Shown here piece after piece: positions 48,599-64,000 of a DNA stretch of 64,000 bases (positions are counted from its first letter, which is position 1; the number at the start of each line of letters is the position of its first letter). The notes under the pieces were generated by a model that was given only the letters and a program-made list of their open reading frames with translations, was not told the DNA's origin and ran no database searches. The position numbers and the translations under genes were made by a program. The stretch is taken from NCBI RefSeq assembly GCF_018736065.1, contig NZ_CP076129.1, positions 1,240,001 to 1,304,000 on the forward strand, in the 5' to 3' direction. Origin of the DNA: Flammeovirga kamogawensis. GTDB lineage: Bacteria; Bacteroidota; Bacteroidia; Cytophagales; Flammeovirgaceae.

Positions 48599-48637
48599 AG
48601 AAGGAGGAGCATTTTTAGTGTTCCTCCTTTCTTTTTT
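48599..48637. terminator. Bidirectional terminator between T9SS gene and hybrid regulator
   Basis: AAGGAGGA pairs with TCCTCCTT around a loop, with A residues before and T residues after. Confidence 0.85.
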
Positions 48638-51600
48638 ACTTTGCCATAATAATTTCTTCTCTATATTCTGATGGAGTTTTTTTGAACTCTAGTTTAAAGC
48701 ATTTACTAAAATACTTTGGATCGTTAAAACCAGTTTGATAGGCAATATCTGAAATATTCAGTTCTGGATCTTTCATTAAATCAGCGGCATATTTCAATCT
48801 AATATTCTTTATAAACTCATTAATTGATAATCCAGAAATAGATTTCATTTTACGTAAAAGGTGCCTTTTACTCATACCAAAATGTTCTGTAAAATCATCT
48901 ACTCCAAATGTAAAATTATCCATGTTGTCTTTTACTACTTCAATTGCTTTACCTAAGAAATCATCTTCAACAACTTCTTTGTTTAAAGTAGCATAAGAGG
49001 TTGTAGATTGGAATTTCTGGACAAGCATTTTACGAGTAGCTGCCATATTGCTTATTTTTCTACGCAGGATATTGATATCAAATGGCTTAACTATATAATC
49101 GTCAGCACCAGCACTATAGCCATTCCATTGGGTTTCTTCTCCAGAATAAGCTGTTAGTAAAATAACAGGAATATGAGATGTTTGAGGTTCATTTTTTATC
49201 AACTTACAAAGGTCTGGACCATTCAATTCAGGCATCATAATATCACTAATCACAAAATCTGGTGAATATTCCATTACTTTTTCAAGACCAATTTTTCCAT
49301 TTTCGGCTTCAATAATATTGAATACATTTCTTAGATTTTCCTTAATGTATTTTCTAATATCGTTGTTATCTTCAACAATCAATATGGTGAGGTTTTCCGC
49401 CTTAATTTCTTGAATTTCATCATCATTAATAACATCAATTGTACTTTCGTTTACAAAAGATAATTGTTCTATATCTTCATTTAAAGTGCCTTTTTTTAAT
49501 GTGTGATTAATTGTCTTCTCAGTAGATGATAAGAAGTCCTCCCCAGTTTTTAATCTCACAGTAAACGTAGATCCTTTGTCTTGTTCAGAAATAACATCGA
49601 TTGTACCATGGTGTAAATCAACAAATTGTTTAATAAGTGCCAAACCAATACCAGTACCAATAGTGGTAGAGTTTACACTGTTATTTGCTTGATAGTACAG
49701 GTCAAAAATATGAGCTTTCTGTTCTTTAGAAATCCCTAAACCAGTATCTTTTATTTCTAAAAGGACTTCATTATTTTCTTTTTTGATAGAAAAATGAATG
49801 GAACGATGATCTGGTGTATATTTAAATGCATTAGACAATAAATTGGTAACAATATTGTCCATTTTTTCTGCATCAAACCACATGATATATTCTTTTTCAA
49901 AACTCTCAAAATGGAAATCAATTTTCTTCTTTTGAGCCAAATGACTGAAAGATAAAAATCGAGCTTTAGAGAAGCTAACAATATCATTCTCACTAGCTTT
50001 AAGGTGTATATTTCCAGATTCTAACTTTCTGAAATCTAATAACTGATTTACGTTTTTGAGTAAGCTATTTGCATTTCTAAACATGACATCATAATCATCT
50101 TTAGGCGATTTACTTTCTCCTTGAATTAGTTGTTTTAGTGGTCCAATTATTAATGTTAATGGAGTTCGTAATTCATGCGAAATATTGGTAAAAAAGCGGA
50201 GTTTTGCCTCGTTATTTTCTTGTACTTCTTGTAGTAAGTTATTAATATTTTCAGATTGTGTTTCTAACTCATGATTCTGCTCTTTTAATAAAGAATTTTT
50301 ATCGTTTAAATCATGATTTTGTTGAGCAAGTAATTCATTCACTTCTTTAATTGTAGAAGTTGCTTGGTTTACCTTTGCTGTTAGTTTTTTCTTCTGTTCT
50401 TTTAATTGATGTACCCTCAGTTTATATAACACTAAAAGTCCTATTATAATAGAAATAATAAAAAGTACTCTAAATAACGTAGTTTCCCACCAAGGTGGAA
50501 TAACGGTAATTTTTAATGCAGTTGGTTGTGTATTCCATATTCCATCATTGTTAGAAGCTTTAACTTTAAAAGTATAAATACCAGGTTTTAAGTTATTGTA
50601 ATAAGCATTTTTTCGATCATTTACATAATACCATTCATCTTCTAATCCTTCTAACATATAGGCATACTGATTCTTTTTCGGAAGTATGAAATTTAATGCA
50701 GAAAATTCAAAAGAAAATATATTTTGATCATGTGATAAAGTGATTTCATTTAATTCATCTATTGGTAATGGGAGTGGACTGTTTTCTGTCCCAAATTCAA
50801 CTTCTTTATTAAAAAGTCTAAAAGATGAAATAACTGTTTTAGCTTGTACAGGGTTTAACCAAATATCTTTAGGTTTGAAGTAATTTAACCCATTATTACC
50901 CCCAAAATACATTGTACCATCTGATTTCTGAAATGCTGCCTGAATTTTAAAATCAAGCCCTTGTAATCCATCCTCTACAGTAAAAACATGAAAATCAGCT
51001 TTATTAGGAGTGTGTACGGCATTTATATATTTTACTAATCCACGTTGCGTACTTATCCATAAGTTACCTTGTTCATCGTCTAAAATACCTGAAATGCTAT
51101 TTGAAGGAAGTCCGTCTTCTGTAGTGTATGTGTAAGAAATATCACTACTTCTATCAAGATAAATCAGTTTATTTCTTGTGCCAATCCAGAGGTTACCTCT
51201 TTGGTCTTCATAACTACAAACAGTTGTAGAAATATTTATTTTATATTGAAGGCCAATGGGCGTAAAATCATCGGTTGCATCATTATAAATATCAATACTA
51301 CTTCCTGTTTGTACAAGTAAATTTCCTCTACTATCTTCAAAAACCTTCCCGATAAAATCATTAGAAATGCTTTTAGGATTGCCAACATCAGATCTATAAT
51401 GTGTAAATGAAGCAGTAGTAGTATTTAATTTATTTAAGCCACCATGCATAGTACCTACCCAAAGATCTCCATTTTTTCTTTGGAAAATTGAACTTACATC
51501 ATTTCTACTTAAACTTGTAGGATCGTCTTCTTTATGGTAAAAGTGTTTTATTTTACCAGTTTTGTAGTCAATAAAATCTAATCCACCGTTAAAAGAACCT

Positions 51601-52859
51601 ACCCACAGGTTTTTCTCTTTATCAGTTAGCATACTTAAGATAACATCTCCAGAAAGACCATCTTTTTTTGATAAAACAGAAGATTTTCCATCTTTTAAAA
51701 TGGTAATTCCACCTCCATCTGTGCCTACATAGATTTCTTTATTGGGTCCTTCAGCAAATGATAGAACGTTATTACTACTTAGAATTCCTTTTTTAAGATG
51801 ATTGAAATCCTTATCCCATTTGCTAAAATAGTTTACCCCACCGTTGTATGTACCTACCCATAAAATACCTCCTTTATTGTCGTAAAGTAGGCTATGTATA
51901 GAATTACTATTTATACTATTTGGAATACTATCGTCGGGTAATAAATCAATTATTTGATATGTTTTGGTATCAAGAATATGTAAGCCTCCACCTTCTGTAC
52001 CAATATATAATTGCCCATTCTGATTTCCATTTAAACATAGAATGCTATTATGTTTTATACCCTCATCTAAAGTAAACGTTTTAAATAGTCCGGTTTCTTT
52101 GTCTAACAAATTAAGTCCACCTCCTAACGTTCCAACCCAAAATTGATTGAATTCATCTTCATATACACTTGTAATTGTATTATGAGATAAATTAGTATTG
52201 AGTTCTTTTTTGTAATGTTTAATGTATTTATTTTCTATTTGTATTTGATATAACCCATTATCTGTACCTACCCAAAGCGTATTTGATTTATCTTCATAAA
52301 TACAGCGTATTGGGTCTTTAATACTTTGTGTTTTACCGTTTTTATTATAAGTATAAGGTATAAAACCATCTGTTTCATAATCATATTGTACTAAACCTTT
52401 ACCTGTTCCAATCCATAATCTATGGTCAGCATCTTCAAAAATAGATTGTATTTTATCATTCGGTAAAGAAGAAGTGTTTTTTGGTTGATTACGATACGTT
52501 TTAAAGGTATCTGTTTGTCTATTTAATAAATTTAGGCCACCACTAAAAGTACCTACCCAAAAATTATTCTTCGAATCTTCATAAATAGAAAGAATAAAGT
52601 GATCTGAAAGCCCAGATTTATCGGTTTCATTCCCAGAATAATTTTTGAACGAACTGCCATTATAACGGTTAAGCCCACTAATACCACCAATCCATAAGTA
52701 CCCTTTATTATCCTTTGCTAAGCACTTTGCCCAACTATGGTTTAACCCTTCATTAATATTTAAGTACTCAAATTTTGGGGAATTTTGTCCATTGGAAAAC
52801 GAAGCTGTAAAAGTTATAAAAATTGAAAAGATAGAACATAAGTAATTAAAAAATTTCAT
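48636..52859 (-). CDS. Hybrid two-component system regulator (HTCS)
   Basis: 1407 residues, the standard size of HTCS proteins. In order: signal peptide (ends FSNGQ), about 14 Reg_prop beta-propeller repeats (pattern LWIGT-GGLN) forming the periplasmic sensor, a Y_Y_Y domain (about 700-785, with YAYMLEGLEDEWYYVND), a transmembrane helix at about 793-815, a coiled coil, HisKA with H895 in ISHELRTPLTLIIGP, HATPase_c (DTGLGISKEQKAHIFD, GTGIGLALIKQ), a receiver domain with D1206 in VISDIMMPELNG, and an AraC-type double helix-turn-helix (DFTEHFGMSKRHLLRKM, ISDIAYQTGFNDPKYFSKCF). All phosphorelay residues are intact. Such regulators bind an oligosaccharide in the periplasm and activate the adjacent PUL. 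The divergent PUL at 53310 is the obvious target. Confidence 0.96.
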   Translation of the reverse strand: MKFFNYLCSIFSIFITFTASFSNGQNSPKFEYLNINEGLNHSWAKCLAKDNKGYLWIGGISGLNRYNGSSFKNYSGNETDKSGLSDHFILSIYEDSKNNFWVGTFSGGLNLLNRQTDTFKTYRNQPKNTSSLPNDKIQSIFEDADHRLWIGTGKGLVQYDYETDGFIPYTYNKNGKTQSIKDPIRCIYEDKSNTLWVGTDNGLYQIQIENKYIKHYKKELNTNLSHNTITSVYEDEFNQFWVGTLGGGLNLLDKETGLFKTFTLDEGIKHNSILCLNGNQNGQLYIGTEGGGLHILDTKTYQIIDLLPDDSIPNSINSNSIHSLLYDNKGGILWVGTYNGGVNYFSKWDKDFNHLKKGILSSNNVLSFAEGPNKEIYVGTDGGGITILKDGKSSVLSKKDGLSGDVILSMLTDKEKNLWVGSFNGGLDFIDYKTGKIKHFYHKEDDPTSLSRNDVSSIFQRKNGDLWVGTMHGGLNKLNTTTASFTHYRSDVGNPKSISNDFIGKVFEDSRGNLLVQTGSSIDIYNDATDDFTPIGLQYKINISTTVCSYEDQRGNLWIGTRNKLIYLDRSSDISYTYTTEDGLPSNSISGILDDEQGNLWISTQRGLVKYINAVHTPNKADFHVFTVEDGLQGLDFKIQAAFQKSDGTMYFGGNNGLNYFKPKDIWLNPVQAKTVISSFRLFNKEVEFGTENSPLPLPIDELNEITLSHDQNIFSFEFSALNFILPKKNQYAYMLEGLEDEWYYVNDRKNAYYNNLKPGIYTFKVKASNNDGIWNTQPTALKITVIPPWWETTLFRVLFIISIIIGLLVLYKLRVHQLKEQKKKLTAKVNQATSTIKEVNELLAQQNHDLNDKNSLLKEQNHELETQSENINNLLQEVQENNEAKLRFFTNISHELRTPLTLIIGPLKQLIQGESKSPKDDYDVMFRNANSLLKNVNQLLDFRKLESGNIHLKASENDIVSFSKARFLSFSHLAQKKKIDFHFESFEKEYIMWFDAEKMDNIVTNLLSNAFKYTPDHRSIHFSIKKENNEVLLEIKDTGLGISKEQKAHIFDLYYQANNSVNSTTIGTGIGLALIKQFVDLHHGTIDVISEQDKGSTFTVRLKTGEDFLSSTEKTINHTLKKGTLNEDIEQLSFVNESTIDVINDDEIQEIKAENLTILIVEDNNDIRKYIKENLRNVFNIIEAENGKIGLEKVMEYSPDFVISDIMMPELNGPDLCKLIKNEPQTSHIPVILLTAYSGEETQWNGYSAGADDYIVKPFDINILRRKISNMAATRKMLVQKFQSTTSYATLNKEVVEDDFLGKAIEVVKDNMDNFTFGVDDFTEHFGMSKRHLLRKMKSISGLSINEFIKNIRLKYAADLMKDPELNISDIAYQTGFNDPKYFSKCFKLEFKKTPSEYREEIIMAK

Positions 52860-53011
52860 AGCACAGTGAATACATTGAGTTGAGTTAGTTTGATAGAAAG
52901 CGATTGTTATGATCGTTCTCTTATCAATTATAAATAGAATTATTCAAATTTAAAAATGAACTTAATATACATGTACTATAAATGATTAAATACATCAAAT
53001 TGTTTTTTTTA

Positions 53012-53050
53012 GAGGTGGAAAAATACGTCAAATGTCTTTTTTTTACCCTT
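53012..53050 (+). promoter_or_regulatory. Box A of the shared PUL control element, copy 1
   Basis: A 39-bp block that matches 31 of 39 positions, without gaps, with the block at 63175-63213. Core matches are GAAAAATA and CAAATGTC; a TTACCCT ends it. It lies about 260 bp before the PKD gene start. Confidence 0.65.
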
Positions 53051-53160
53051 TTAAGGCTATTTTTTAACAGAACCTTAGCAAGTACATTCTTTTTGATGGA
53101 ATCTGCATTTTTAGTAGTCTATTCAAAGATTATTAGAGCAGGTAACACACTGTAATTACC

Positions 53161-53240
53161 TAGGTGTCTTAAATATCCCCTTATCAGTGTCTTGATTACA
53201 CCTAAAAAAAAATGAATCTCCCTAAAATTGTAACATACTC
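53161..53240 (+). promoter_or_regulatory. Box B dyad plus box C, copy 1
   Basis: TAGGTGT (53161-53167) and ACACCTA (53198-53204) form an inverted repeat enclosing CCCCTTA and AGTGTCTT. About 13 bp later TCCCTAAAATTGTAA follows (box C, from 53219). The same order, with similar spacing, recurs at 63320-63400. Likely an operator or activator site of the hybrid regulator plus promoter. Confidence 0.65.
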
Positions 53241-53309
53241 TTCAACTAAGCGCTACTAAGAAAGAGACGAATCAACTTTTTAAAAGACAATAAAGCAAAA
53301 CGTATTGAG

Positions 53310-54857
53310 ATGAATTTTACAAAAACAACTTTATTAAAACTCTTTATTTTTACTATGCTTGGGATATCACTCTCTTGTGAGAACAAAGAGACATCTTTAG
53401 ATATACCAATGCCGGTATTAGCAAAATATTCTTTTATTATTTCTGACGATACTGTTGTAAGCTTTACAAATAAATCTGTTGGAGCTACTACTTATTTATG
53501 GGATTTTGGCGATGGTACAACATCAGAAGAGCAACATGTAGAACACGTTTTTCCAGAAGGAGAGTTTGTGGTTAATTTAATGGCTGCTTCTGGAGCAATT
53601 GAAAATACTTTTACTAAAGAAGTTAACATTTTTGTTCCAGAAATTATTGAGCCAGTAGATGTAGTTGCAGAAGCAAAGAAGATATTGGTTGGAACAGATG
53701 GCATTAAGAAGTGGTCGATAGCTAAAGAATCTAAAGGATATGCTTTTGGACCATTAGATGATGAAACTATTGATTGGTTTGTTGTTGATATGTATGATGA
53801 AAATGCTTTTACAACTAGAGCATGCCTTTTTAATCAAGAGTTTTCTTTTACTACGGAAGGAGTATACAAAAGAGTTTCAAACGGTGCTCTTTGGAAAGAA
53901 TGGCAAATTTTTGAAAATGAAGGTTGTCATGATACAAACAATGATTTAGTAACAAATGCAGGTGCAAATGTAGAAGTTTGGGAAGATGGTGAGTTTACAT
54001 ATGAAATCACAGAAGAAGGTGGCTTTGCAGTAATTACAGTTACAGGTTTGGGTGGTTATGTAGGTCATTATACAAGTGGAGTTGATGCTTCAGACTTTTT
54101 ACCTCAAAAAGAACATAAGTATATTATTAAATCTGCATTACCAGGTAGAATAGAATTGTCTTCTCTTGGCTATAATGGAGATTCTAAAGCAATACCAAAT
54201 AAAGCTGATCGTTTAGTAAGATTAATTTTGGTTCCATCAGAAGTAACAGAGGAAACAGTTGAGGAAGAAGAACCAATAGAAGAGGTAGATTTATCACCAA
54301 TAAAAACTTTATTGTCTAGATCTTGGGCAATAGAAGAAAAAGCTGGGGCGGTATATTATGGTCCGCTAGTAGGAGATGATGTTTGGTGGTCTTTATCAGA
54401 AAATGATGTTCTTGCTAGAACGTGTTTATTTGATTCAGAATTTACATTCTCTGAAGATGGAAGTTATTCAAGAGATATGAATGGTACAATTTGGAAAGAA
54501 TGGTCGATATTCCCTGATGTTGAATGTGATGATACTTCAAACCCACTAATTAATATTGACGGAGAAAATGTAGACACTTGGGGAGATGGTGATTTTACCT
54601 ATGAATTAAGTGTTGTAGATAACGATACAATTATTACAGTAAACGGTATGGGTGGTTATATAGGTCATTATACTTCTGGCGTAGATTACGCAGATTATGT
54701 TGCACATGATGTTCATGAATATAAAATAACTTCTATTTCAGATTCAGAATTAAAATTATCGTCGAAAGGTTTTGGAGGTGATTCGAAAACTATTGCAGGT
54801 TATGATCCGAACAAAGCAGATAGAATTGTAAATATTTCTTTTGTACCAGCTAACTAA
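53310..54857 (+). CDS. PKD-domain lipoprotein with tandem repeat of an unrecognised domain (putative surface glycan-binding protein)
   Basis: 515 residues. The lipobox SLSC gives a lipidated Cys at residue 23. A PKD domain follows at about residues 37-110 (YLWDFGDGTTSEEQHVEHVFPEG). Two copies of a domain of about 190 residues fill the rest (about 120-318 and 335-515). Both carry CLF-EF-F, NG--WKEW-IF, a second Cys followed by DT, FTYE, and GGY-GHYTSGVD. Each copy has one Cys pair that could form a disulfide. I do not recognise the repeat. It is the first gene of the PUL, just before susC, in the place and with the lipoprotein layout of surface glycan-binding proteins (SusE/F-like), so that is the likely role (inference). 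Confidence 0.78.
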   Translation: MNFTKTTLLKLFIFTMLGISLSCENKETSLDIPMPVLAKYSFIISDDTVVSFTNKSVGATTYLWDFGDGTTSEEQHVEHVFPEGEFVVNLMAASGAIENTFTKEVNIFVPEIIEPVDVVAEAKKILVGTDGIKKWSIAKESKGYAFGPLDDETIDWFVVDMYDENAFTTRACLFNQEFSFTTEGVYKRVSNGALWKEWQIFENEGCHDTNNDLVTNAGANVEVWEDGEFTYEITEEGGFAVITVTGLGGYVGHYTSGVDASDFLPQKEHKYIIKSALPGRIELSSLGYNGDSKAIPNKADRLVRLILVPSEVTEETVEEEEPIEEVDLSPIKTLLSRSWAIEEKAGAVYYGPLVGDDVWWSLSENDVLARTCLFDSEFTFSEDGSYSRDMNGTIWKEWSIFPDVECDDTSNPLINIDGENVDTWGDGDFTYELSVVDNDTIITVNGMGGYIGHYTSGVDYADYVAHDVHEYKITSISDSELKLSSKGFGGDSKTIAGYDPNKADRIVNISFVPAN

Positions 54858-54893
54858 TTTTTTGAACGCTATTCAGAAATAAAATCAACTAAG

Positions 54894-57800
54894 ATGAAAA
54901 TATATATAAAAAGTTTATCTGTATTCTGTTTTATAATAGCTATGCTATTGAATACAACAAACGTATTTGCTCAGGAAGACTTTACGCTAACTGGTTTAGT
55001 AGTAGACGAAAATAACGAACCTTTAATTGGAGTAACTGTAGCTTTAATAGGAGATTTTGAGACACCTATTGGTACAACAACAGACTTTGATGGAAATTAT
55101 AAAATACTAGTTCCAGAGGGAGTGACAGGTGTGTCGTTTCGTTATATGGGATATGAGACACAAACTTTTGATTTAACAAACCAAACAAACATTAGTGTTA
55201 CGCTAAAAGAAGATATTGATGTGTTGAATGAGGTTGTGGTTGTAGGGTATGGTACCCAAGAAAAGAAAGATGTTACTGGTGCCATGTCTTCTGTAGACAG
55301 AGAAGACTTTAATTCGGGTGTCATGTCAAACCCTACAGAACTTATTCAAGGTAGAGCAACGGGTGTTCAGATCACACCAAGTAGTGGAGAACCTGGAGCT
55401 GCTGTTTCGGTAAATATTAGAGGTACAAGTTCAGTACGTGGTAATAACGGTCCATTATATGTAATTGATGGAGTGCCTTTAGGTGGTGGCGCTGCAGCTT
55501 CTGGATCTGTAGGAGGTGGAAATCAAGCACCAAAAGATCCTTTAAACTTCTTAAATCCAGATGATATTGAAAGTATTGATATCTTAAAGGATGCATCAGC
55601 AACAGCTATTTATGGTTCTAGAGGATCGAACGGTGTAGTGATGATCACAACTAAGAAGGCTAAAAACCAAGAAGGTAAAGTGAGTTATTCTGCTTATGGT
55701 GGTATGGCATGGGTAAGAAAGAAAATTGATTTACTTTCATCAGATGATTGGAGATTAAGTAGAGCTTTAATAGCTCAATCTACAGGCGACTTATCATTTT
55801 TAGATTGGGATTATGGTGGAAACACAAACTGGCAAGATGAAATTTTTAGAACAGCTTATTCTCAGAATCATAACTTGTCTGTATCAGGTGGGTCTGAAAC
55901 AGGTAACTATTTAGCATCTCTTGGGTATATGGATCAAGAAGGGGTTATAGAAAGCTCTGGAATGAAACGTCTTACAGGTCGTTTAAATATTGAACAGCGA
56001 TTATTGGACGATAGATGGAAAGTTGGTTTTAACTTATCTGCATCAACAATTAATGATACTTACGCACCTTTAGGTACAGGTTCTGGAACTGGTGATACTG
56101 GTGCAAATAACTTAATAGGTAGTGCATTAAGAGGTAACCCAACAATGCCAATTTATAATGAAGATGGGTCGTATTTTCAAACACCAACAGATGTCAACCC
56201 TGTAGCATTAATCAATTTAATAAATGATGAGTCGGTAACAGACCGTTATTTAGCCAATGTAACTTCAGATTTTAAAATAATAGAAGGTTTACATTATAAT
56301 TTGAGTATTGCTTATGATAGATCAAATGCTCAGCGTAAAGGTAGTCGTTCTAAAGATTTACAAAGTGAAACAAACGGTACGGGTACAATTAGTAATAATC
56401 AAAATACAAACTTTTCAATAGAGAATTTTGTAACATACTCTAAAACAATTAATAAGCATGATTTCTCTGTGATGGGAGGTTTTTCATACCAAAAATTTGA
56501 TTACGAATTTAACGGTATGTATGTAGATAACTTCTTTTCTTCTGCTGTAGATTATGCAGATAATCTAAATCAGGCGGCAAATAAACAAGCATCAAGCGTT
56601 TGGTCTGGTGGAGGTTCTTCAGAATTACAATCTTATTTTGGTAGGTTTAATTATAGCTTTAATGATAAGTATTTAATTACTGCATCTATGAGAGCGGATG
56701 GTTCTACTAAGTTTGGAGATAATAATAAGTATGGTTATTTCCCTAGTGCAGCGTTAGGCTGGAGAATTTCTGAAGAAGCTTTTTTATATAATTCTGATGT
56801 AGTTTCTAACCTTAAATTAAGAGGTGGATGGGGACAAACAGGTAACCAAGAAATTCCGGATCATATTCCATTAATGATCTATAACCCAGTAACGGTAAAT
56901 GATGAAAAAACATATGAACCAGATCATCAACCAAATGAGGATATTAAATGGGAAACAACAACACAAGCAAACATAGGTGTAGATTTTGGTTTCTTTAATG
57001 ATAAGATTTCGGGTACGTTAGATTACTTCCATAAGTCAACAACAGATTTATTATTTAAAGTAGATTTAACGCCTCCAGCATTGGCAACAGTTGGTTATGT
57101 CAACTTACCTGCTCAATTAATAAATAAAGGTTTTGAGGCATCGTTAAAAGTATATTGGATTACAGACGGAGATTGGGAGTTTTCATCAAACGTTAACTTC
57201 ACAATGATCGAAAATAATATTCAAGGTTTAGATAATGATGCTGTAAGAACAGGTAGATTAAACGGACCGGGTATCTCTAGTACACAAGTTCAAGTTATTC
57301 AAGACAACTATCCATTACAGACTTTTTATACAAGAGAATTTAGAGGTTTTGATCAAGAAGGATATTCTAAGTACACTAATGCAGAAGGTGGTACAACAGG
57401 TTCGGCAGATGCAGCAGTGGAAAGACATTTGGGGTCACCTCATCCAGATTATATGTGGAGTTTAAATAATACGCTGAAATACAAAAGCATAGATTTCTCA
57501 GTATTTATTGATGCAAAACACGGACAGAATATTTATAACAACACAGCACATGCTTTCTATAATAAAAGGATGTTATCTCAGGCAGGGAATACAACGTATG
57601 CCAATTTAATGTCGGAGAAAAACCTTGATCAAGAAGCAATTACTTCTTCAGAATTTATAGAGGATGCTACTTTCCTTCGTTTATCAAACATCACTTTAGG
57701 TTACAATTTTAATACCTCTAATATTTCATGGATGAGTGGTGCTAGAATTTACGCAACAGGACAGAATTTATTTGTATGGACAAACTATACAGGTTATGAC

Positions 57801-57911
57801 CCTGAAGTAAATGCAAGTATGGACGTAAATGGTTACCCATCATTTGGTATAGATTATACATCTTACCCGCGCCCATCTACTGTAATTATTGGTATCAATG
57901 TTAATCTTTAA
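54894..57911 (+). CDS. susC: SusC-like TonB-dependent transporter
   Basis: 1005 residues with signal peptide (ends NVFAQED, about residue 25). A carboxypeptidase-D-like domain (TLTGLVVDENNEPLIGVTVA, DFDGNYKILVPEGV) precedes the TonB region NEVVVVGYGTQEKKDVTG, the plug (DASATAIYGSRGSNGVVMITTKK) and a barrel that ends STVIIGINVNL. It should import the oligosaccharide made by the cell-surface enzymes of this PUL together with SusD (encoded 12 bp downstream). It is 37 bp after the PKD gene, in one operon, and differs enough from the SusC at 7347 to serve another glycan. Confidence 0.95.
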   Translation: MKIYIKSLSVFCFIIAMLLNTTNVFAQEDFTLTGLVVDENNEPLIGVTVALIGDFETPIGTTTDFDGNYKILVPEGVTGVSFRYMGYETQTFDLTNQTNISVTLKEDIDVLNEVVVVGYGTQEKKDVTGAMSSVDREDFNSGVMSNPTELIQGRATGVQITPSSGEPGAAVSVNIRGTSSVRGNNGPLYVIDGVPLGGGAAASGSVGGGNQAPKDPLNFLNPDDIESIDILKDASATAIYGSRGSNGVVMITTKKAKNQEGKVSYSAYGGMAWVRKKIDLLSSDDWRLSRALIAQSTGDLSFLDWDYGGNTNWQDEIFRTAYSQNHNLSVSGGSETGNYLASLGYMDQEGVIESSGMKRLTGRLNIEQRLLDDRWKVGFNLSASTINDTYAPLGTGSGTGDTGANNLIGSALRGNPTMPIYNEDGSYFQTPTDVNPVALINLINDESVTDRYLANVTSDFKIIEGLHYNLSIAYDRSNAQRKGSRSKDLQSETNGTGTISNNQNTNFSIENFVTYSKTINKHDFSVMGGFSYQKFDYEFNGMYVDNFFSSAVDYADNLNQAANKQASSVWSGGGSSELQSYFGRFNYSFNDKYLITASMRADGSTKFGDNNKYGYFPSAALGWRISEEAFLYNSDVVSNLKLRGGWGQTGNQEIPDHIPLMIYNPVTVNDEKTYEPDHQPNEDIKWETTTQANIGVDFGFFNDKISGTLDYFHKSTTDLLFKVDLTPPALATVGYVNLPAQLINKGFEASLKVYWITDGDWEFSSNVNFTMIENNIQGLDNDAVRTGRLNGPGISSTQVQVIQDNYPLQTFYTREFRGFDQEGYSKYTNAEGGTTGSADAAVERHLGSPHPDYMWSLNNTLKYKSIDFSVFIDAKHGQNIYNNTAHAFYNKRMLSQAGNTTYANLMSEKNLDQEAITSSEFIEDATFLRLSNITLGYNFNTSNISWMSGARIYATGQNLFVWTNYTGYDPEVNASMDVNGYPSFGIDYTSYPRPSTVIIGINVNL

Positions 57912-57922
57912 GCTGAACAATT

Positions 57923-59539
57923 ATGAAATTCAATACATATAAATCTTTAGCAGTAGCCTTTGTATCGATGCTGTCGGTAGGGTGTACTAATTTAGAACCA
58001 AATACAGACTTTCAAGTAACGCAAGAGAAATACTATGCGGAGCAAAGAAAATTAATTTTAGAAGACCCTACAAAGCTGAGTGCTTTATCATTACCAGCGT
58101 ATTCATCACTTTTCCAGTTTATGGGAGAAAGAAATATTTACGCACTAACAGAGGGGTCTACAGATGAAATGATGACGCCAACAAGAGGAAATGATTGGAA
58201 TGATAATGGACTTTGGCTACAATTACACAAGCAAGAATGGGGGGCAGATCATCTTATTGTAGAAAATGGATGGAACGATATGTCTGTAGGAATATCTAGA
58301 ACATTTAATACATTAAAAGATATCTATGACATTGGTGATGGCGATGAATATTTCTTAGAAATTGCTCAACCATACATTGCAGAAGTTAGATTTTTAAGAG
58401 CTTATTATGTGTGGCAAGTACTTGATTTATTTGGCCAAGTACCTTATAGAAACGAAGAAGGGGTAAATGTAGCTTTAGATAGAGTTACAGCTACAAATTT
58501 AGTTATTCAAGAATTAGAAGAAATTACACCTCTATTATTTGAGAAAAAAGACCAACCTGAATATGGTAAAATAGTGAGAGAGACTGGACATGCTTTACTT
58601 TCTAAAGTATACCTAAATCGTTTTATCTACAATGGAGAATCATCAGCATCTAAAGAAGATATGGATAAGGCAATTGAACATGCTGATGCCGTTTTAACTT
58701 CCCCAAGTTATAGATTGGCAGATGACTACTTTCAGCTTTTTGATTTTAATAATCAAGATAGTCCAGAGGCATTACTAATAATCAGAAATGGCTACAATGT
58801 TTCTAGTGAGTTTTCTGGTCAAACAAGAGCTTTAATGACATTACATTACTCTCAAACAGCAGGAACTGCAGCTTTACAGCCTTGGAATGGAATGTGTACT
58901 ACAGAAGAGTTTTTCAATTCTTGGGATCAAGATGGAATTAGTGGTAATGGCGTCTCAACAACTGATTATCGTTTTCAAGATACTAGATATGTACAAAGTA
59001 CAGGGCTAAAGTTAGGGTTACTAGAAGGCCAACAATACAGTACTTCTGGGGTTCAATTAAAGGATAGAAATGGAAATTTACTGGCCTATACAGCAGAAGT
59101 AGCAGACATTACTAACGCTCAAGAATTTGAAGGTGTAAGAGTATTAAAATGGGCACCAGATCAGCTTTCTGAAAATTTTTGGAGAGCAAATAACGATGTG
59201 GCACTTCTTAGATTTGCTGATGTATATTTAATGAAAGCAGAAGCACTTTGGAGAAATGGAGATGCAGCAGGTGCACTTACTATTATTAATGATTTAAGAC
59301 TTAGAAGAGGAAATACAGTGCTTGCAGCAATTAGTGCAGACGGTCAGGAGATATTAGACGAAAGAGGTTTTGAATTGTATTGGGAAGGTTACAGAAGAAC
59401 AGATTTAGTTCGTTTTGGTCAATTTACAAATGGAACATGGGCAGGGAAAGAAGTAACTACCGAAGATAGAAATGTATATCCAATACCTTCATCAGTATTA
59501 GTATCTAGTGATGGTTTTTCTCAAAACAGTGGCTACTAG
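57923..59539 (+). CDS. susD: SusD-like glycan-binding lipoprotein
   Basis: 538 residues. The lipobox SVGC lies at about residues 18-21. The RagB/SusD fold is recognised from the helical N-terminal region (VRFLRAYYVWQVLDLFGQVPYRNE), LMKAEALWRNGDAAGALTIINDLRLRRG and the C-terminal ERGFELYWEGYRRTDLVRFGQF and YPIPSSVLVSSDGFSQNSGY. It caps the SusC barrel at the cell surface and binds the glycan. It is followed 73 bp later by the GH71/99-like gene. Confidence 0.95.
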   Translation: MKFNTYKSLAVAFVSMLSVGCTNLEPNTDFQVTQEKYYAEQRKLILEDPTKLSALSLPAYSSLFQFMGERNIYALTEGSTDEMMTPTRGNDWNDNGLWLQLHKQEWGADHLIVENGWNDMSVGISRTFNTLKDIYDIGDGDEYFLEIAQPYIAEVRFLRAYYVWQVLDLFGQVPYRNEEGVNVALDRVTATNLVIQELEEITPLLFEKKDQPEYGKIVRETGHALLSKVYLNRFIYNGESSASKEDMDKAIEHADAVLTSPSYRLADDYFQLFDFNNQDSPEALLIIRNGYNVSSEFSGQTRALMTLHYSQTAGTAALQPWNGMCTTEEFFNSWDQDGISGNGVSTTDYRFQDTRYVQSTGLKLGLLEGQQYSTSGVQLKDRNGNLLAYTAEVADITNAQEFEGVRVLKWAPDQLSENFWRANNDVALLRFADVYLMKAEALWRNGDAAGALTIINDLRLRRGNTVLAAISADGQEILDERGFELYWEGYRRTDLVRFGQFTNGTWAGKEVTTEDRNVYPIPSSVLVSSDGFSQNSGY

Positions 59540-59611
59540 AAGTTAGATGTGTGAATTATTTTGGGCAGTGTAGAATGCTGCCCATCTTTTAAATCAAAAA
59601 CAATTAGTAAG

Positions 59612-60847
59612 ATGAATACTATAAAAAATATACTCTTTACAATCTGTTCAACAGCTCTTATAACTGCCTGTACAACTGAAAATGTAATTTCAGATTTTCC
59701 AATTAAAAAAGGTGTGGTAGAGCATGAAGCAGTGCCTGTTGCAAAGTCAAACAATAAGAAAGTGTACATGCACTACATGCCTTGGTTTGAGGCTAAAGGC
59801 GATTATTCTTCTGATTGGGGAAGCCATTGGACAATGACTAATAAAAATCCAGATGAATTAATTGACGGGAATGTTCCGGATATTGCATCACATGTGCACC
59901 CTTTAATTGGACCTTACGATTCTCGTGATCCAGACGTTATTAATTATCACTTGTTATTGATGAAATATGCTGGTATTGATGGTCTATTAATCAACTGGTA
60001 TGGTACAGAAGGAACAAACCAAGATATTGATTCTCTTTTACAGAATTCGAACGCAATTATTGAAGAGTTAGATGATGTTGGCTTAAACTTCTCTGTAGTA
60101 ATGGAAGATCGTTTTGCTAACGAAGTAACACCTTTTGATGATATCACTGCTAATATTAAATATTTAAGTGATAATTATTATGGTAGAGATGAATACATCA
60201 GAATTGATGGAAAACCTCTAACATTAATATTTGGACCTTTCCAAGAAGGTGATGCAAATTGGGAACAAGCTTTGGCTATTTCTCCAGAGGAAGAACATTT
60301 TATTCCTCTTCAGAATAATACTAAAATTAATACTGTTGCAGATGGAGATTTTGCATGGCCTGGTTCGGGAGATATTAGTGACATAGAAAACTACTATAAG
60401 AATGCAGATCCAAATAAAATTTCTGTAGGTGGTGCTTTCCCTGGTTTTAAAGATTTTTATGAGGAAGGTGGTTATGGTGAAGTAATTGTTGGCGGATGGG
60501 AATATCCATTAGGAGCAGACCAAATGAAAACAACTTTAGACTTTGCAGTACAATACGAAAGCAAAATAGATTTCTTACAATTGATTACATGGAATGACTT
60601 TGGGGAAGGAACAACAATAGAACCTACAATAGAATACCAATTTGACTTCTTAATAGAAGTACAAAAATATACAGGCGTTAGTTACACAGTTACAGAACTT
60701 GAAATGGTTTACAATTGGTTTAACCTTAAAAATGATCCTCGATACCAAGCAGAGAGGTCATTTAGAGATAAGGTAGATCAGATTTACTTTAACCTTGTAT
60801 CTACCAGAGTATCAGAAGCCAATGATTTATTTATAGAACTTCAATAA
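59612..60847 (+). CDS. GH71/GH99-like lipoprotein (endo-alpha-glycanase candidate)
   Basis: About 411 residues from the ATG at 59612. An in-frame TTG at 59561 is rejected because the lipoprotein signal (MNTIKNILFTICSTALITAC) begins at 59612. The TIM-barrel family motifs are KVYMHYMPWFEAKGDYSSDW (split), GIDGLLINWYGTEGTN and TWNDFGEGTTIEPT. The last motif aligns with the GH99 E-W-H-E-G motif of endo-alpha-mannanases, giving D329 and E332; the second Glu is kept and the first is Asp. GH71 enzymes cleave alpha-1,3-glucan and GH99 enzymes alpha-mannan. Since a GH97 alpha-glucosidase-like gene follows, an alpha-glucan looks somewhat more likely (inference). Surface lipoprotein location fits an endo-acting first step. 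Confidence 0.8.
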   Translation: MNTIKNILFTICSTALITACTTENVISDFPIKKGVVEHEAVPVAKSNNKKVYMHYMPWFEAKGDYSSDWGSHWTMTNKNPDELIDGNVPDIASHVHPLIGPYDSRDPDVINYHLLLMKYAGIDGLLINWYGTEGTNQDIDSLLQNSNAIIEELDDVGLNFSVVMEDRFANEVTPFDDITANIKYLSDNYYGRDEYIRIDGKPLTLIFGPFQEGDANWEQALAISPEEEHFIPLQNNTKINTVADGDFAWPGSGDISDIENYYKNADPNKISVGGAFPGFKDFYEEGGYGEVIVGGWEYPLGADQMKTTLDFAVQYESKIDFLQLITWNDFGEGTTIEPTIEYQFDFLIEVQKYTGVSYTVTELEMVYNWFNLKNDPRYQAERSFRDKVDQIYFNLVSTRVSEANDLFIELQ

Positions 60848-60862
60848 ACTTAATTTAAAAAC

Positions 60863-62935
60863 ATGTCAATTAGAAAGTTAATTACAACATTGATATTAGG
60901 AAGTACACTTTCTTCATGTCAATTATTCGATAGTTATAAAGAAACAGATGTAGTGCTCTCATCACCGGGTAATCATTTAGAATTAACGTTTAAAATGATA
61001 GATGGAGCACCAAAATACGAAGTTACATTCGATAACGAGCCAATTATCTCAACTTCTGATTTAGGTTTTGTATTGAAAGACCAACCTAATTTATTAGACA
61101 ATTTTGAGGTTGTAGATATTAAAGAAAAATCTATTGATGAAAAATGGGAAACGATATGGGGGCAAAGTAAAGAGGTTGATAATAACTATAATGAGTTAAC
61201 TGTTTTTCTTAAAGAGAAATCTAAAAAGCCAAGAGAAATGCAACTTATTTTTAGAGCTTTTGATGATGGATTAGGTTTTAGATATTTTATTCCTACTCAA
61301 GAAAATATTTCTAAAATAGAAATCATGTCGGAAGAAACGACATTCAATTTAGTAGACAATTACAAAGTATGGTACCAACCATGTGACACAATTGTTTCTA
61401 ATTGGGAGCATGGGTTTGATACATATGAACGTCTTTATGAAAAAGCACAAGTTACAGAGGTTAAAACGTTAATGCATACACCTGCTACTTTTGAAACAAA
61501 AAGCGGAGATTATGTGAGTATTCACGAAGCAAACCTTACAGATTACTCTACCATGACGTTGGATAGAGGTACTAAAGGTACATCATTTGAATCTTACTTA
61601 GTTCCATGGCCTGACGGTGTGAAAGTAAAAAGAACTACACCAATGTACACACCTTGGAGAACTGTTCAAGTAGGGCACAACCCTGGTGATCTTGTAGAAT
61701 CAAATATCATTTTAAATTTAAATGAACCAAATAAAATAGAAGATGTCTCTTTTATAAAACCTATGAAATATTTAGGAGTTTGGTGGGAAATGCACATGAA
61801 TAAATCTACTTGGGAACAAGGTCCAAACCATGGAGCAAATACAGAAAATACAAAAAAATATATCGATTTTGCGGCATCAAATGGTCTTGGAGGAGTATTA
61901 GTAGAAGGTTGGAACAAAGGATGGGAAGACTGGATTACAAACCCTAATTTCAATTTTGTAGAGCCTTATTCTGATTACGATTTAAAATATTTAGCAAGTT
62001 ATGCCAAAGAAAAGGGAGTAGAATTAATAGGTCATCATGAAACAAGTGGTGATATTTTAACCTACGAAAATCAGATGGATGATGCTTTTGATCTTCTTGA
62101 AAAGAATGAAATGAACGCATTAAAAACAGGTTATGTAGGCAAAATTAGAGCAGAAGAAGAAGGTCAACATCACCATGGTCAGTATATGGTGAACCATTAC
62201 AGAAAGGTATTAGAAACGGCAGCTAAACATAAAGTTTGTGTTGTAGCACATGAACCAATAAAGCCAACGGGAATTCGTAGAACCTATCCAAATATGTTAA
62301 GTAGAGAAGCTATGCGTGGTATGGAATATAATGCTTGGAGTGATGGAAACCCAGCAAGTCATACTACAATTCTACCATTTACTATGGGTTTAGGTGGTCC
62401 GTTAGATTATACGCCAGGTATTTTTCAGACAAATTTTGACAAATACAGAAAAGGAAATTCTACTCATACTACAGTGGCAAATCAGTTGGCTTTATATGTA
62501 GTATTGTATAGTCCTGTGCAGATGGCAGCCGATTTACCAGAACATTACGAAGGAAACCCAGCGTTTCAGTTTATTAGAGAAGTTCCAACAGATTGGGAAG
62601 AGTCTAAGGTGTTAACTGCAGATATTGGAGAGTACGTGGCGGTGGCTAGAAAAGATAGAAAAAGCAACGATTGGTATATAGGAGCAATTACAAACGAAGA
62701 GAAAAGAGCATTAGAAATTCCTATCGATTTCTTAGAAGATGGGAAAGAATATATTGCAGAAATCTATGCAGATGGAACAAATGCAAGCTATAAAGTAAAT
62801 GCTACTGATGTGGACATTAAAAAAGTAAAAATTAGAAACGGAGAACACCTTTCTATGCATTTAGCAGAGGGAGGCGGACAAGCAATACGAATACATGAAG
62901 CAACTACTGGAAAATATGTATCTATGACTGAATAA
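60863..62935 (+). CDS. GH97 family glycoside hydrolase, lipoprotein
   Basis: 690 residues, the usual GH97 size. A lipobox-like LSSC lies at residues 16-19. The N-terminal beta-super-sandwich (SSPGNHLELTFKMIDGAPKYEV, FRAFDDGLGFRYFIP) is followed by the TIM barrel (YLGVWWEMHM, GVLVEGWNKGWEDWI) and a short C-terminal beta domain. The motif VVAHEPIKPTGIRRTYPNML contains E464, in the place of a base Glu in inverting SusB-type enzymes; the retaining alpha-galactosidase subgroup differs here. An inverting alpha-glucosidase is therefore the best guess. It is calcium-dependent in known members. It is the last gene of the PUL operon, 15 bp after the GH71/99-like gene and before a strong terminator. Confidence 0.88.
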   Translation: MSIRKLITTLILGSTLSSCQLFDSYKETDVVLSSPGNHLELTFKMIDGAPKYEVTFDNEPIISTSDLGFVLKDQPNLLDNFEVVDIKEKSIDEKWETIWGQSKEVDNNYNELTVFLKEKSKKPREMQLIFRAFDDGLGFRYFIPTQENISKIEIMSEETTFNLVDNYKVWYQPCDTIVSNWEHGFDTYERLYEKAQVTEVKTLMHTPATFETKSGDYVSIHEANLTDYSTMTLDRGTKGTSFESYLVPWPDGVKVKRTTPMYTPWRTVQVGHNPGDLVESNIILNLNEPNKIEDVSFIKPMKYLGVWWEMHMNKSTWEQGPNHGANTENTKKYIDFAASNGLGGVLVEGWNKGWEDWITNPNFNFVEPYSDYDLKYLASYAKEKGVELIGHHETSGDILTYENQMDDAFDLLEKNEMNALKTGYVGKIRAEEEGQHHHGQYMVNHYRKVLETAAKHKVCVVAHEPIKPTGIRRTYPNMLSREAMRGMEYNAWSDGNPASHTTILPFTMGLGGPLDYTPGIFQTNFDKYRKGNSTHTTVANQLALYVVLYSPVQMAADLPEHYEGNPAFQFIREVPTDWEESKVLTADIGEYVAVARKDRKSNDWYIGAITNEEKRALEIPIDFLEDGKEYIAEIYADGTNASYKVNATDVDIKKVKIRNGEHLSMHLAEGGGQAIRIHEATTGKYVSMTE

Positions 62936-62960
62936 TTAATTATAATATTTGAGCTGATCA

Positions 62961-62990
62961 AAGGCCTCCTTCTTAAGGGGGCTTTTTTTT
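62961..62990 (+). terminator. Rho-independent terminator of the second PUL operon
   Basis: GCCTCCTT pairs with AAGGGGGC (one T-G pair), followed by eight T. Confidence 0.9.
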
Positions 62991-63174
62991 GTTGGTTACG
63001 ATTTTATAAGGGAAGATCAAGATTAGATAAGAAGTTTCAGGCTACTATCTATAAAACAGTATTTGATATCCAAACTTAAATTGAAGGTTATGAAATACAA
63101 TGTATTCATTCCGTTAGTAACTGATCATAATTTAAATCAAAGTACCTCTATTGATTACTAATTTATTGTTTTTT

Positions 63175-63213
63175 GAGGGTGAAAAATAGGACAAATGTCG
63201 ATTTATTACCCTC
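63175..63213 (+). promoter_or_regulatory. Box A of the shared PUL control element, copy 2
   Basis: A 39-bp block opening GAGGGT and closing ACCCTC, an inverted repeat, with GAAAAATA and CAAATGTC inside. It matches copy 1 (53012-53050) at 31 of 39 positions without gaps. Confidence 0.65.
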
Positions 63214-63319
63214 AAAACACTACTAATCTCAAGAAAGCTCTTTTCCTTCTACTTTATCTTAAAAACCTTATTGAGATAGCAGAAATGGCTGTTTTTCATC
63301 AAATGTAAGGAGAGTAAAA

Positions 63320-63400
63320 TAGGTGTAGTCTTAAAATTACCCCTTAGAGTGTCTTATTTACACCTAATAAAATGAGGGATCCCGTAAAATTGTAATACCC
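63320..63400 (+). promoter_or_regulatory. Box B dyad plus box C, copy 2
   Basis: TAGGTGTA (63320-63327) and TACACCTA (63359-63366) form a perfect 8-bp inverted repeat, enclosing CTTAAA, CCCCTTA and AGTGTCTT. Box C, TCCCGTAAAATTGTAA, follows from 63380. Box A to box B spacing is 145 bp here and 149 bp in copy 1. Confidence 0.65.
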
Positions 63401-63572
63401 TAATCAAGCAAATCGCGAAGTTTGAAGAGGGTAAACAAATGAATGAATCATTTACTAGTATGAAATAATAAAGCAATCTATTTATCCAACTATTGTAAGC
63501 ATTACTGGCCTTACAAAAACTAATAAAATTACTTTTTACGTTGATGGGCAACCATCATTAGATTTATATTTT

Positions 63573-64000
63573 ATGAAGAAGATATTACAAAAGATAGTAT
63601 TCTTAGCGGTATTAATTACTCCGTGTTTTGTTTTCGGACAAGAAGAAACAATTGATCAAACCATGTACATTGATTTTGGTCCAAATGATGAGACGAATGG
63701 AGATGAAACCTCAGGTGAAGATACAAATGGTAATTATTGGACCAATGTAACGAACGCACTTTCTAGTGGAGATCCAATTACTATTCTAAATGCATTAAAT
63801 GAAGATACGGGAATTAGTTTACAACTTGAGACTACATTTGGGAAAAATGGTAAAAACCATGGTGGATTAAAAACGCCAGAAGAAGCTAAACTAGCAGAAT
63901 TAGCAATTGCTACTGCTACTCAAGATTATTTCTTTACAAGTGGTACTTGTGGTATTAGATTATCTGGGTTTGATAAAGATAAGCAATACAGATTTACAGC
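63573..64000 (+). CDS. Secreted protein, N-terminal fragment (3' end outside window)
   Basis: About 142 residues are visible before the window ends. A Sec signal peptide (MKKILQKIVFLAVLITPCFV, ending FGQ) is followed by a beta-rich domain that begins MYIDFGPNDETNGDE and continues NGNYWTNVTNALSSGD. This YIDFG-type domain is common near the start of large secreted Bacteroidota proteins and is often followed by fibronectin, carbohydrate-binding or T9SS domains. The function cannot be told from this part. Upstream lies the same composite element as before the PUL operon, so it is probably induced by the same glycan through the hybrid regulator. It may be an extracellular glycan-binding or degrading protein. 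Confidence 0.78.
   Translation, partial: MKKILQKIVFLAVLITPCFVFGQEETIDQTMYIDFGPNDETNGDETSGEDTNGNYWTNVTNALSSGDPITILNALNEDTGISLQLETTFGKNGKNHGGLKTPEEAKLAELAIATATQDYFFTSGTCGIRLSGFDKDKQYRFT

Follow-up and report, generated by a model that had tools for sequence, protein, structure and literature searches.

In this locus of Flammeovirga kamogawensis a long sequence element stands in front of two transcription units, and the question is whether both copies serve the HTCS regulator encoded beside the first one, and whether the secreted protein gene behind the second copy, at the right edge, belongs to the same PUL. The stretch of DNA analysed (64,000 nucleotides, called the window here, with positions counted from its first letter) lies in contig 2 of the 6.97-Mb genome. 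The coordinates of the features are collected in the table.

The original prediction had described three boxes, A, B and C, recurring before two units, and this was borne out. The box A copies (53012-53050 and 63175-63213) are identical in 31 of 39 positions without a gap, the three boxes follow each other in the same order in both copies, and the distance from the start of box A to the start of TAGGTGT is 149 bp in copy 1 and 145 bp in copy 2. The box B core is identical in 31 of 42 positions, and TAAAATTGTAA, in the box C region, is the same in both copies. When the upstream regions were dinucleotide-shuffled, the best 39-mer or 42-mer match did not exceed 28 (100 trials each); in the window the gapped box B pattern is confined to 53161-53204 and 63320-63366, and in 100 shuffles it did not occur. 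The flanks of the two copies agreed at chance level, both upstream of box A (34/100) and downstream of box C (20/70), and so did the spacer between boxes A and B when it was aligned back from box B (30/106). Aligned from the end of box A, the spacer gave 40/106 identities, a value reached by 17 of 1000 shuffles, which is perhaps a faint trace of common descent. The further claim, that the element is a conserved signal and not a recent duplication, was upheld by the chance-level flanks and by the maintenance of the boxes between species (see below).

A common half-site of approx. 18 bp, TGTC-N8-ACC, could be recognized in boxes A and B. In box B two half-sites stand in tandem, 23 bp apart, and in box A two stand head to head, the reverse arms fitting the register with a shift of about one base. 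A matrix that had only the window's four box B half-sites as its training set was scanned over the window, and the two box A pairs, at a 20-bp offset, took ranks 1 and 2 of the 63,963 head-to-head placements; they kept these ranks when 11 offsets were pooled (703,582 placements). Only 1 of 5000 column-permuted matrices equalled the box A match. The converse matrix, made from the two box A forward sites, recovered the box B half-sites poorly (ranks 20, 23, 136 and 515). Box A is best read as an inverted pair, and box B as a direct pair, of one half-site. The idea of two different dyads, put forward originally, could not be maintained: relative to the conserved core, the TAGGTGT left arm of box B differs by 3 bp in register between the copies, and copy 2 of the sister species has kept just 3 of its 7 bases, so that this arm is lost there. 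The dyad of box B thus appears to be incidental, and the two-dyad reading was rejected. In copy 1 the left arm is kept in both species, and its TGT belongs to half-site i.

Measured between half-sites, the geometry is tighter than the 149 and 145 bp of the start-to-start distances suggest. From the GTC of the box A forward half-site to the first GTC of box B there are 132 bp in copy 1 and 131 bp in copy 2, with the same values in the sister species. The two GTC of box B are 23 bp apart, and the second one is 34 bp from box C, in all four promoters (two copies in two species). Between the end of half-site ii and box C there are 17 bp, which places this half-site where a -33 element would lie. 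At 10.5 bp per turn, the centre of box A is separated from that of box B by 14.6 and 14.5 helical turns in the two copies, and the phasing is therefore neutral with respect to a loop.

The -7 element of the primary sigma factor of the Bacteroidota has the consensus TAnnTTTG, from which TAAAATTG of box C is one base away. Occurrences were counted upstream of 121 sampled genes in sense, antisense and shuffled sequence. TAnnTTTG was found 39 times in sense and 23 times in antisense orientation (shuffled, 23.4 +/- 4.2), and TAAAATTG 10 and 4 times (shuffled, 2.7 +/- 1.7). The TAnnATTG class, which includes box C, showed little strand bias (33 sense, 29 antisense, 19.5 +/- 4.3 shuffled). Box C seems to be part of the core promoter and not a third control box. 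Since TAAATTTG lies on the minus strand before the regulator gene, copy 1 box A might also affect the HTCS gene; a divergent gene is not needed for a box A, because the upstream neighbour of copy 2 is the co-directional GH97 gene.

Table. Features of the two promoters and of the neighbouring genes (positions in the window)
Feature	Position	Strand	Basis or remark
HTCS regulator, 1407 aa (Reg_prop sensor, Y_Y_Y, HisKA, HATPase, receiver, AraC-type HTH_18)	48636..52859	-	Pfam
Candidate -7 element of the regulator's own promoter, TAAATTTG	52945..52952	-	exact TAnnTTTG fit
Copy 1 box A, reverse half-site, weak, TGACGTATTTTTCCACCT	53013..53030	-	matrix rank 30; head-to-head pair rank 1/63,963
Copy 1 box A, forward half-site	53033..53050	+	rank 5, the first below the training set of four
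Copy 1 box B, half-site i	53165..53182	+	23 bp before half-site ii; kept in sister species
Copy 1 box B, half-site ii	53188..53205	+	ends 17 bp before -7-like element
Copy 1 box C, -7-like element TAAAATTG	53223..53230	+	34 bp from half-site ii GTC; enrichment upstream of genes
PKD-domain protein, first gene of transcription unit 1	53310..54857	+	Pfam
SusC-like TonB-dependent transporter	54894..57911	+	TIGR04056
SusD-like lipoprotein	57923..59539	+	Pfam
GH99/GH71-like glycoside hydrolase	59561..60847	+	Pfam, PDB matches
GH97; best-scoring solved relatives named alpha-glucosidases	60863..62935	+	Pfam, PDB
Copy 2 box A, reverse half-site	63176..63193	-	rank 9; head-to-head pair rank 2/63,963
Copy 2 box A, forward half-site, weaker alone	63196..63213	+	rank 188 in window
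Copy 2 box B, half-site i	63327..63344	+	register and spacing; matrix scan
Copy 2 box B, half-site ii	63350..63367	+	register and spacing; matrix scan
Copy 2 box C, -7-like element TAAAATTG	63385..63392	+	34 bp spacing; enrichment upstream of genes
Secreted protein, start (1258 aa; whole gene L002:1574-5350), second transcription unit	63573..64000	+	domain matches

Among the 17 other genomes of the family, a single one, that of the sister species (G006), contained the same PUL together with both box copies; the proteins of the two species are 92% (PKD), 98% (SusC) and 92% (HTCS) identical. In copy 2, box A was identical between the species in 35 of 39, the box B core in 41 of 42 and box C in 10 of 10 positions; the spacer agreed in 62/106 positions (58%) with no indel, and the flank after GH97 in 115/185, with 39 inserted bases. 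Copy 1 is more alike overall (spacer 82/110, box A 36/39, box B core 41/42). Since the spacer and upstream flanks of copy 2 have drifted to 58-67% and the boxes have not, selection appears to maintain the boxes. The spacers together had 72 substitutions and zero indels, where approx. 3.9 indels would be expected from the rate of 0.0535 per substitution obtained in 27 intergenic regions whose flanking genes both served as anchors. Among further 106-bp windows that had diverged to a similar degree, 4 of 14 and 11 of 28 were free of indels. The indel-free spacers are thus only mildly unusual and give mild evidence for a loop. With two promoters in two closely related species, the effective sample for the operator reading as a whole is small. 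The leader of the second unit (63395-63572, about 170 nt) was 92% conserved between the species, compared with 58% in the spacer upstream.

The original prediction had named random or housekeeping placement of the boxes as evidence against it. With up to 3 mismatches allowed, the box A and box B patterns matched only these two promoters in the own genome. In the 18 genomes of the family the box A pattern gave two matches in F. kamogawensis, two in the sister species, none in the other 16 and none in the control, and the box B pattern, searched in 390 genomes of the order, had 4 matches in 2 of them, all at these promoters, with 0 matches listed in the control. A shorter box B core with 2 mismatches was found 9 times in the own genome and 3 times in the reversed control, the two real sites alone being exact. 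The search was carried over to more distant PULs by way of the GH99-like protein, which has relatives in 22 of 395 genomes of the phylum, the own one counted; 20 stretches, from 19 of the other 21 genomes, were examined. SusC, SusD, GH99-like and GH97 genes follow in the same order in 9 of these 20, and this block comes from eight genomes of one genus of the same class (g22) and from one other (L053-L060, L064). In one stretch (L050) an HTCS gene adjoins GH97. No box B-like site was found in the 20 stretches (best matrix score 11.0, compared with 56.6-58.3 for the real sites). HTCS relatives in the genome contigs, 10 loci of at most 37% identity, gave a best box B score of 9.2, and the highest value over all scanned loci was 17.6, at L100, an HTCS locus of the own genome. 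A search of the genome contigs with the PKD protein gave no relative.

A survey of direct repeats was made in 38 intergenic regions of the own genome, at least 120 bp long and having a blast match in the sister loci. These came from 13 of 16 HTCS loci; convergent gaps and regions lacking a match were left out, L093, L095 and L100 yielded no region, L091 was kept despite a spurious sister match, and some regions are perhaps not HTCS promoters. The copy 1 promoter was included, and the copy 2 promoter was missed as its gene runs off the window. In this small sample the mean score peaked at 21 bp among 34 spacings, and four regions scored 13 or more at 21 bp, with at most one at any other spacing; 23 bp, the tandem spacing of box B, was not a peak. 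A distal pair was sought at six direct-repeat candidates of other HTCS loci. One of them, L104, has a clear 21-bp tandem, and since its possible third half-site scores 13.2, near two chance-like matches in the locus (13.0 and 12.4), a distal pair is not claimed as a general feature. The repeat of this locus (L104:5227-5264, on contig C3) and its counterpart in the sister (L117:5224-5261) stand upstream of another HTCS gene; GCA has changed to GTA between the species in both halves, besides other single changes. Such paired changes are as expected of an operator co-evolving with its HTCS.

The regulator beside copy 1 carries Reg_prop, Y_Y_Y, HisKA, HATPase_c, Response_reg and HTH_18 domains in one chain, all above the Pfam cut-off, the combination by which an HTCS is recognized, and its receiver contains SHIP, one half of a motif named in the available text of PMC11253607. 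Its C-terminal 258 residues are 96% identical in the sister species, and the next family matches among those listed, own paralogs included, were at 37-47%. A close relative of the HTCS was thus confined, among the 17 other family genomes, to the sister species which also bears the boxes. This co-occurrence in the same two genomes is in line with the original suggestion of control by the HTCS, which most likely reads the boxes.

The HTCS gene adjoins a susC/susD-like pair and glycoside hydrolase genes, an arrangement that marks an HTCS-controlled PUL; the substrate is probably an alpha-glycan and perhaps an acylated one. The secreted protein of the second unit (1258 residues) contains Big_2, SGNH-like hydrolase and MBG_2 domains and a T9SS sorting tail. 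Its GDSL/SGNH match is just under the Pfam cut-off (31.5 vs 32.9 bits), and candidate SGNH blocks (GSS, GGDNT, GLSMGNEG, DPAHPNQKGH) were assigned by eye. Outside the C-terminal part it had matches only in F. kamogawensis and the sister species among the 18 family genomes. In the sister (L021/L022, C2:613477-617982) the open frame in which the SGNH-like protein lies is longer, 1532 aa compared with 1296 aa, and shows additional matches to the region 999-1089, where the MBG domain is located. Through the copy 2 promoter the secreted gene most likely belongs to the PUL, as had been proposed. About 5 kb beyond the second unit (L002:10581-12946, equivalent to about 72580-74945, past the right edge of the window) a gene with an adenylate/guanylate cyclase domain lies beside a PycTM effector gene, a pair resembling a Pycsar anti-phage cassette.

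With the repeat, the common half-site, the fixed spacings, the conservation in the sister, the absence from the other genomes searched and the co-occurrence with the HTCS observed, we estimate with a probability of about three in four that each copy is a composite operator-promoter with four half-sites for this HTCS, through which both units would be co-induced. AraC-type activators which overlap the -35 region recruit RNA polymerase to the promoter. We infer that here the AraC-type DNA-binding domain of the HTCS would read TGTC-N8-ACC, and that after sensor activation and phosphorylation of the receiver one HTCS dimer would occupy the tandem pair of box B, which ends at the -33 position, and would in the same way recruit RNA polymerase to the -7 element in box C, downstream of which transcription would then begin. 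A second dimer on the head-to-head pair of box A, 131-132 bp upstream, would assist, probably through cooperative contacts with the first or by a short loop of the DNA. One glycan would thus induce both units together, the PKD-SusCD-GH99-like-GH97 operon as well as the gene of the secreted SGNH-esterase-like protein. A more detailed model, with two membrane-tethered HTCS dimers at each promoter forming a membrane-pinned short loop and a complex of four activator domains, is put forward tentatively and we consider it rather doubtful, while DNA looping between the boxes as such is possible.

Other explanations were considered for the same data. Box B alone might be the HTCS operator, with box A read by another protein, for instance a Crp-like global regulator assisting both promoters; box A is palindrome-like and distal, the matrix of its forward sites ranks the box B sites low, and a Crp-like palindromic motif has been predicted beside sugar operons of Bacteroides (PMC3878776, available text). 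We regard this as improbable, since the two best head-to-head placements that the box B matrix finds in the window are the box A pairs, and the box A pattern, unlike the site of a global regulator, is absent elsewhere in the genome at up to 3 mismatches. The similar blocks could also be the remnant of a promoter duplicated long ago, carrying no joint regulation. The common order and spacing and the faint similarity after box A (17/1000 shuffles) agree with this, but the copies agree no better than chance in their flanks and in the spacer aligned back from box B, and between the species the boxes were kept by selection next to diverged surroundings, so that a mere remnant is very unlikely. The HTCS operator reading would allow for an old duplication on which selection then acted.

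A LytTR response regulator and a histidine kinase are encoded directly downstream of the copy 2 gene, in convergent orientation (L002:5802-7693), and might be thought to own the boxes. The LytTR regulator was found in 14 of 18 family genomes (E <=1e-60), with at least 65% identity in nine of nine members of the genus, but the box A and box B patterns in 2 of 18 only; the boxes thus do not track this regulator, which was rejected as their reader, its chance being minimal. It is just as hard to believe that the blocks act in the RNA as leader structures. Dyads can form hairpins; however, the -7-like element is downstream of both box A and box B, which should therefore escape transcription from that promoter, and copy 2 has not conserved the left arm of the dyad in box B.

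Among the regulators of PULs in Bacteroides the HTCSs form a major class (PMC11253607). Their motifs had previously not been known according to PMC3878776 (2013), in the available text of which the motifs predicted for 16 of the 36 HTCSs of B. thetaiotaomicron are direct repeats with a mean distance of 21 bp. The present case is like these in having a direct repeat of two half-sites upstream of a PUL operon, in its assignment to an HTCS with an AraC-type HTH encoded beside the PUL, and in the inclusion of a second, separate unit, as in some HTCS regulons there (PMC3878776). In box B the two half-sites are about two helical turns apart, as in HTCS operators, at 23 bp compared with the published mean of 21 bp (PMC3878776). 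In place of one direct repeat only, which is a described trait and not known as a defining one, all four promoters here have in addition the distal head-to-head pair 131-132 bp upstream. The layout is thus longer than the HTCS motifs predicted in PMC3878776, which agrees with the original remark that it exceeds the layouts usually described. A long-range two-part layout upstream of PUL genes is also seen in the predicted SusR-like sites, which differ in that two tandem sites stand at a distance of 67 or 77 bp and serve a protein of another family (PMC3878776). Tandem sites of approx. 21 bp had already been predicted for HTCSs, and what is new here, in comparison with the texts available, is the inverted pair which repeats this half-site at a distal position.

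AraC uses distal half-sites and DNA looping, and activators of the AraC and CdhR type are not known to have a membrane-spanning sensor, unlike an HTCS. As far as the available texts describe them, AraC-family activators resemble the present case in having direct half-sites for activation and further half-sites nearby, and for CdhR, which has extra half-sites, looping was proposed (PMC5806209). In an HTCS it is the full protein that binds DNA, presumably still anchored in the inner membrane (PMC3404733), and its binding is restrained by a contact between receiver and HTH until phosphorylation (PMC11253607).

The combination of proximal tandem and distal inverted half-sites at a nearly constant distance offers a testable case of cooperative or looped activation by a membrane-bound regulator. 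The border of the PUL would be drawn here by the common operator and not by gene order, and a secreted SGNH-esterase-like protein would in this way be added to an apparent alpha-glycan PUL.
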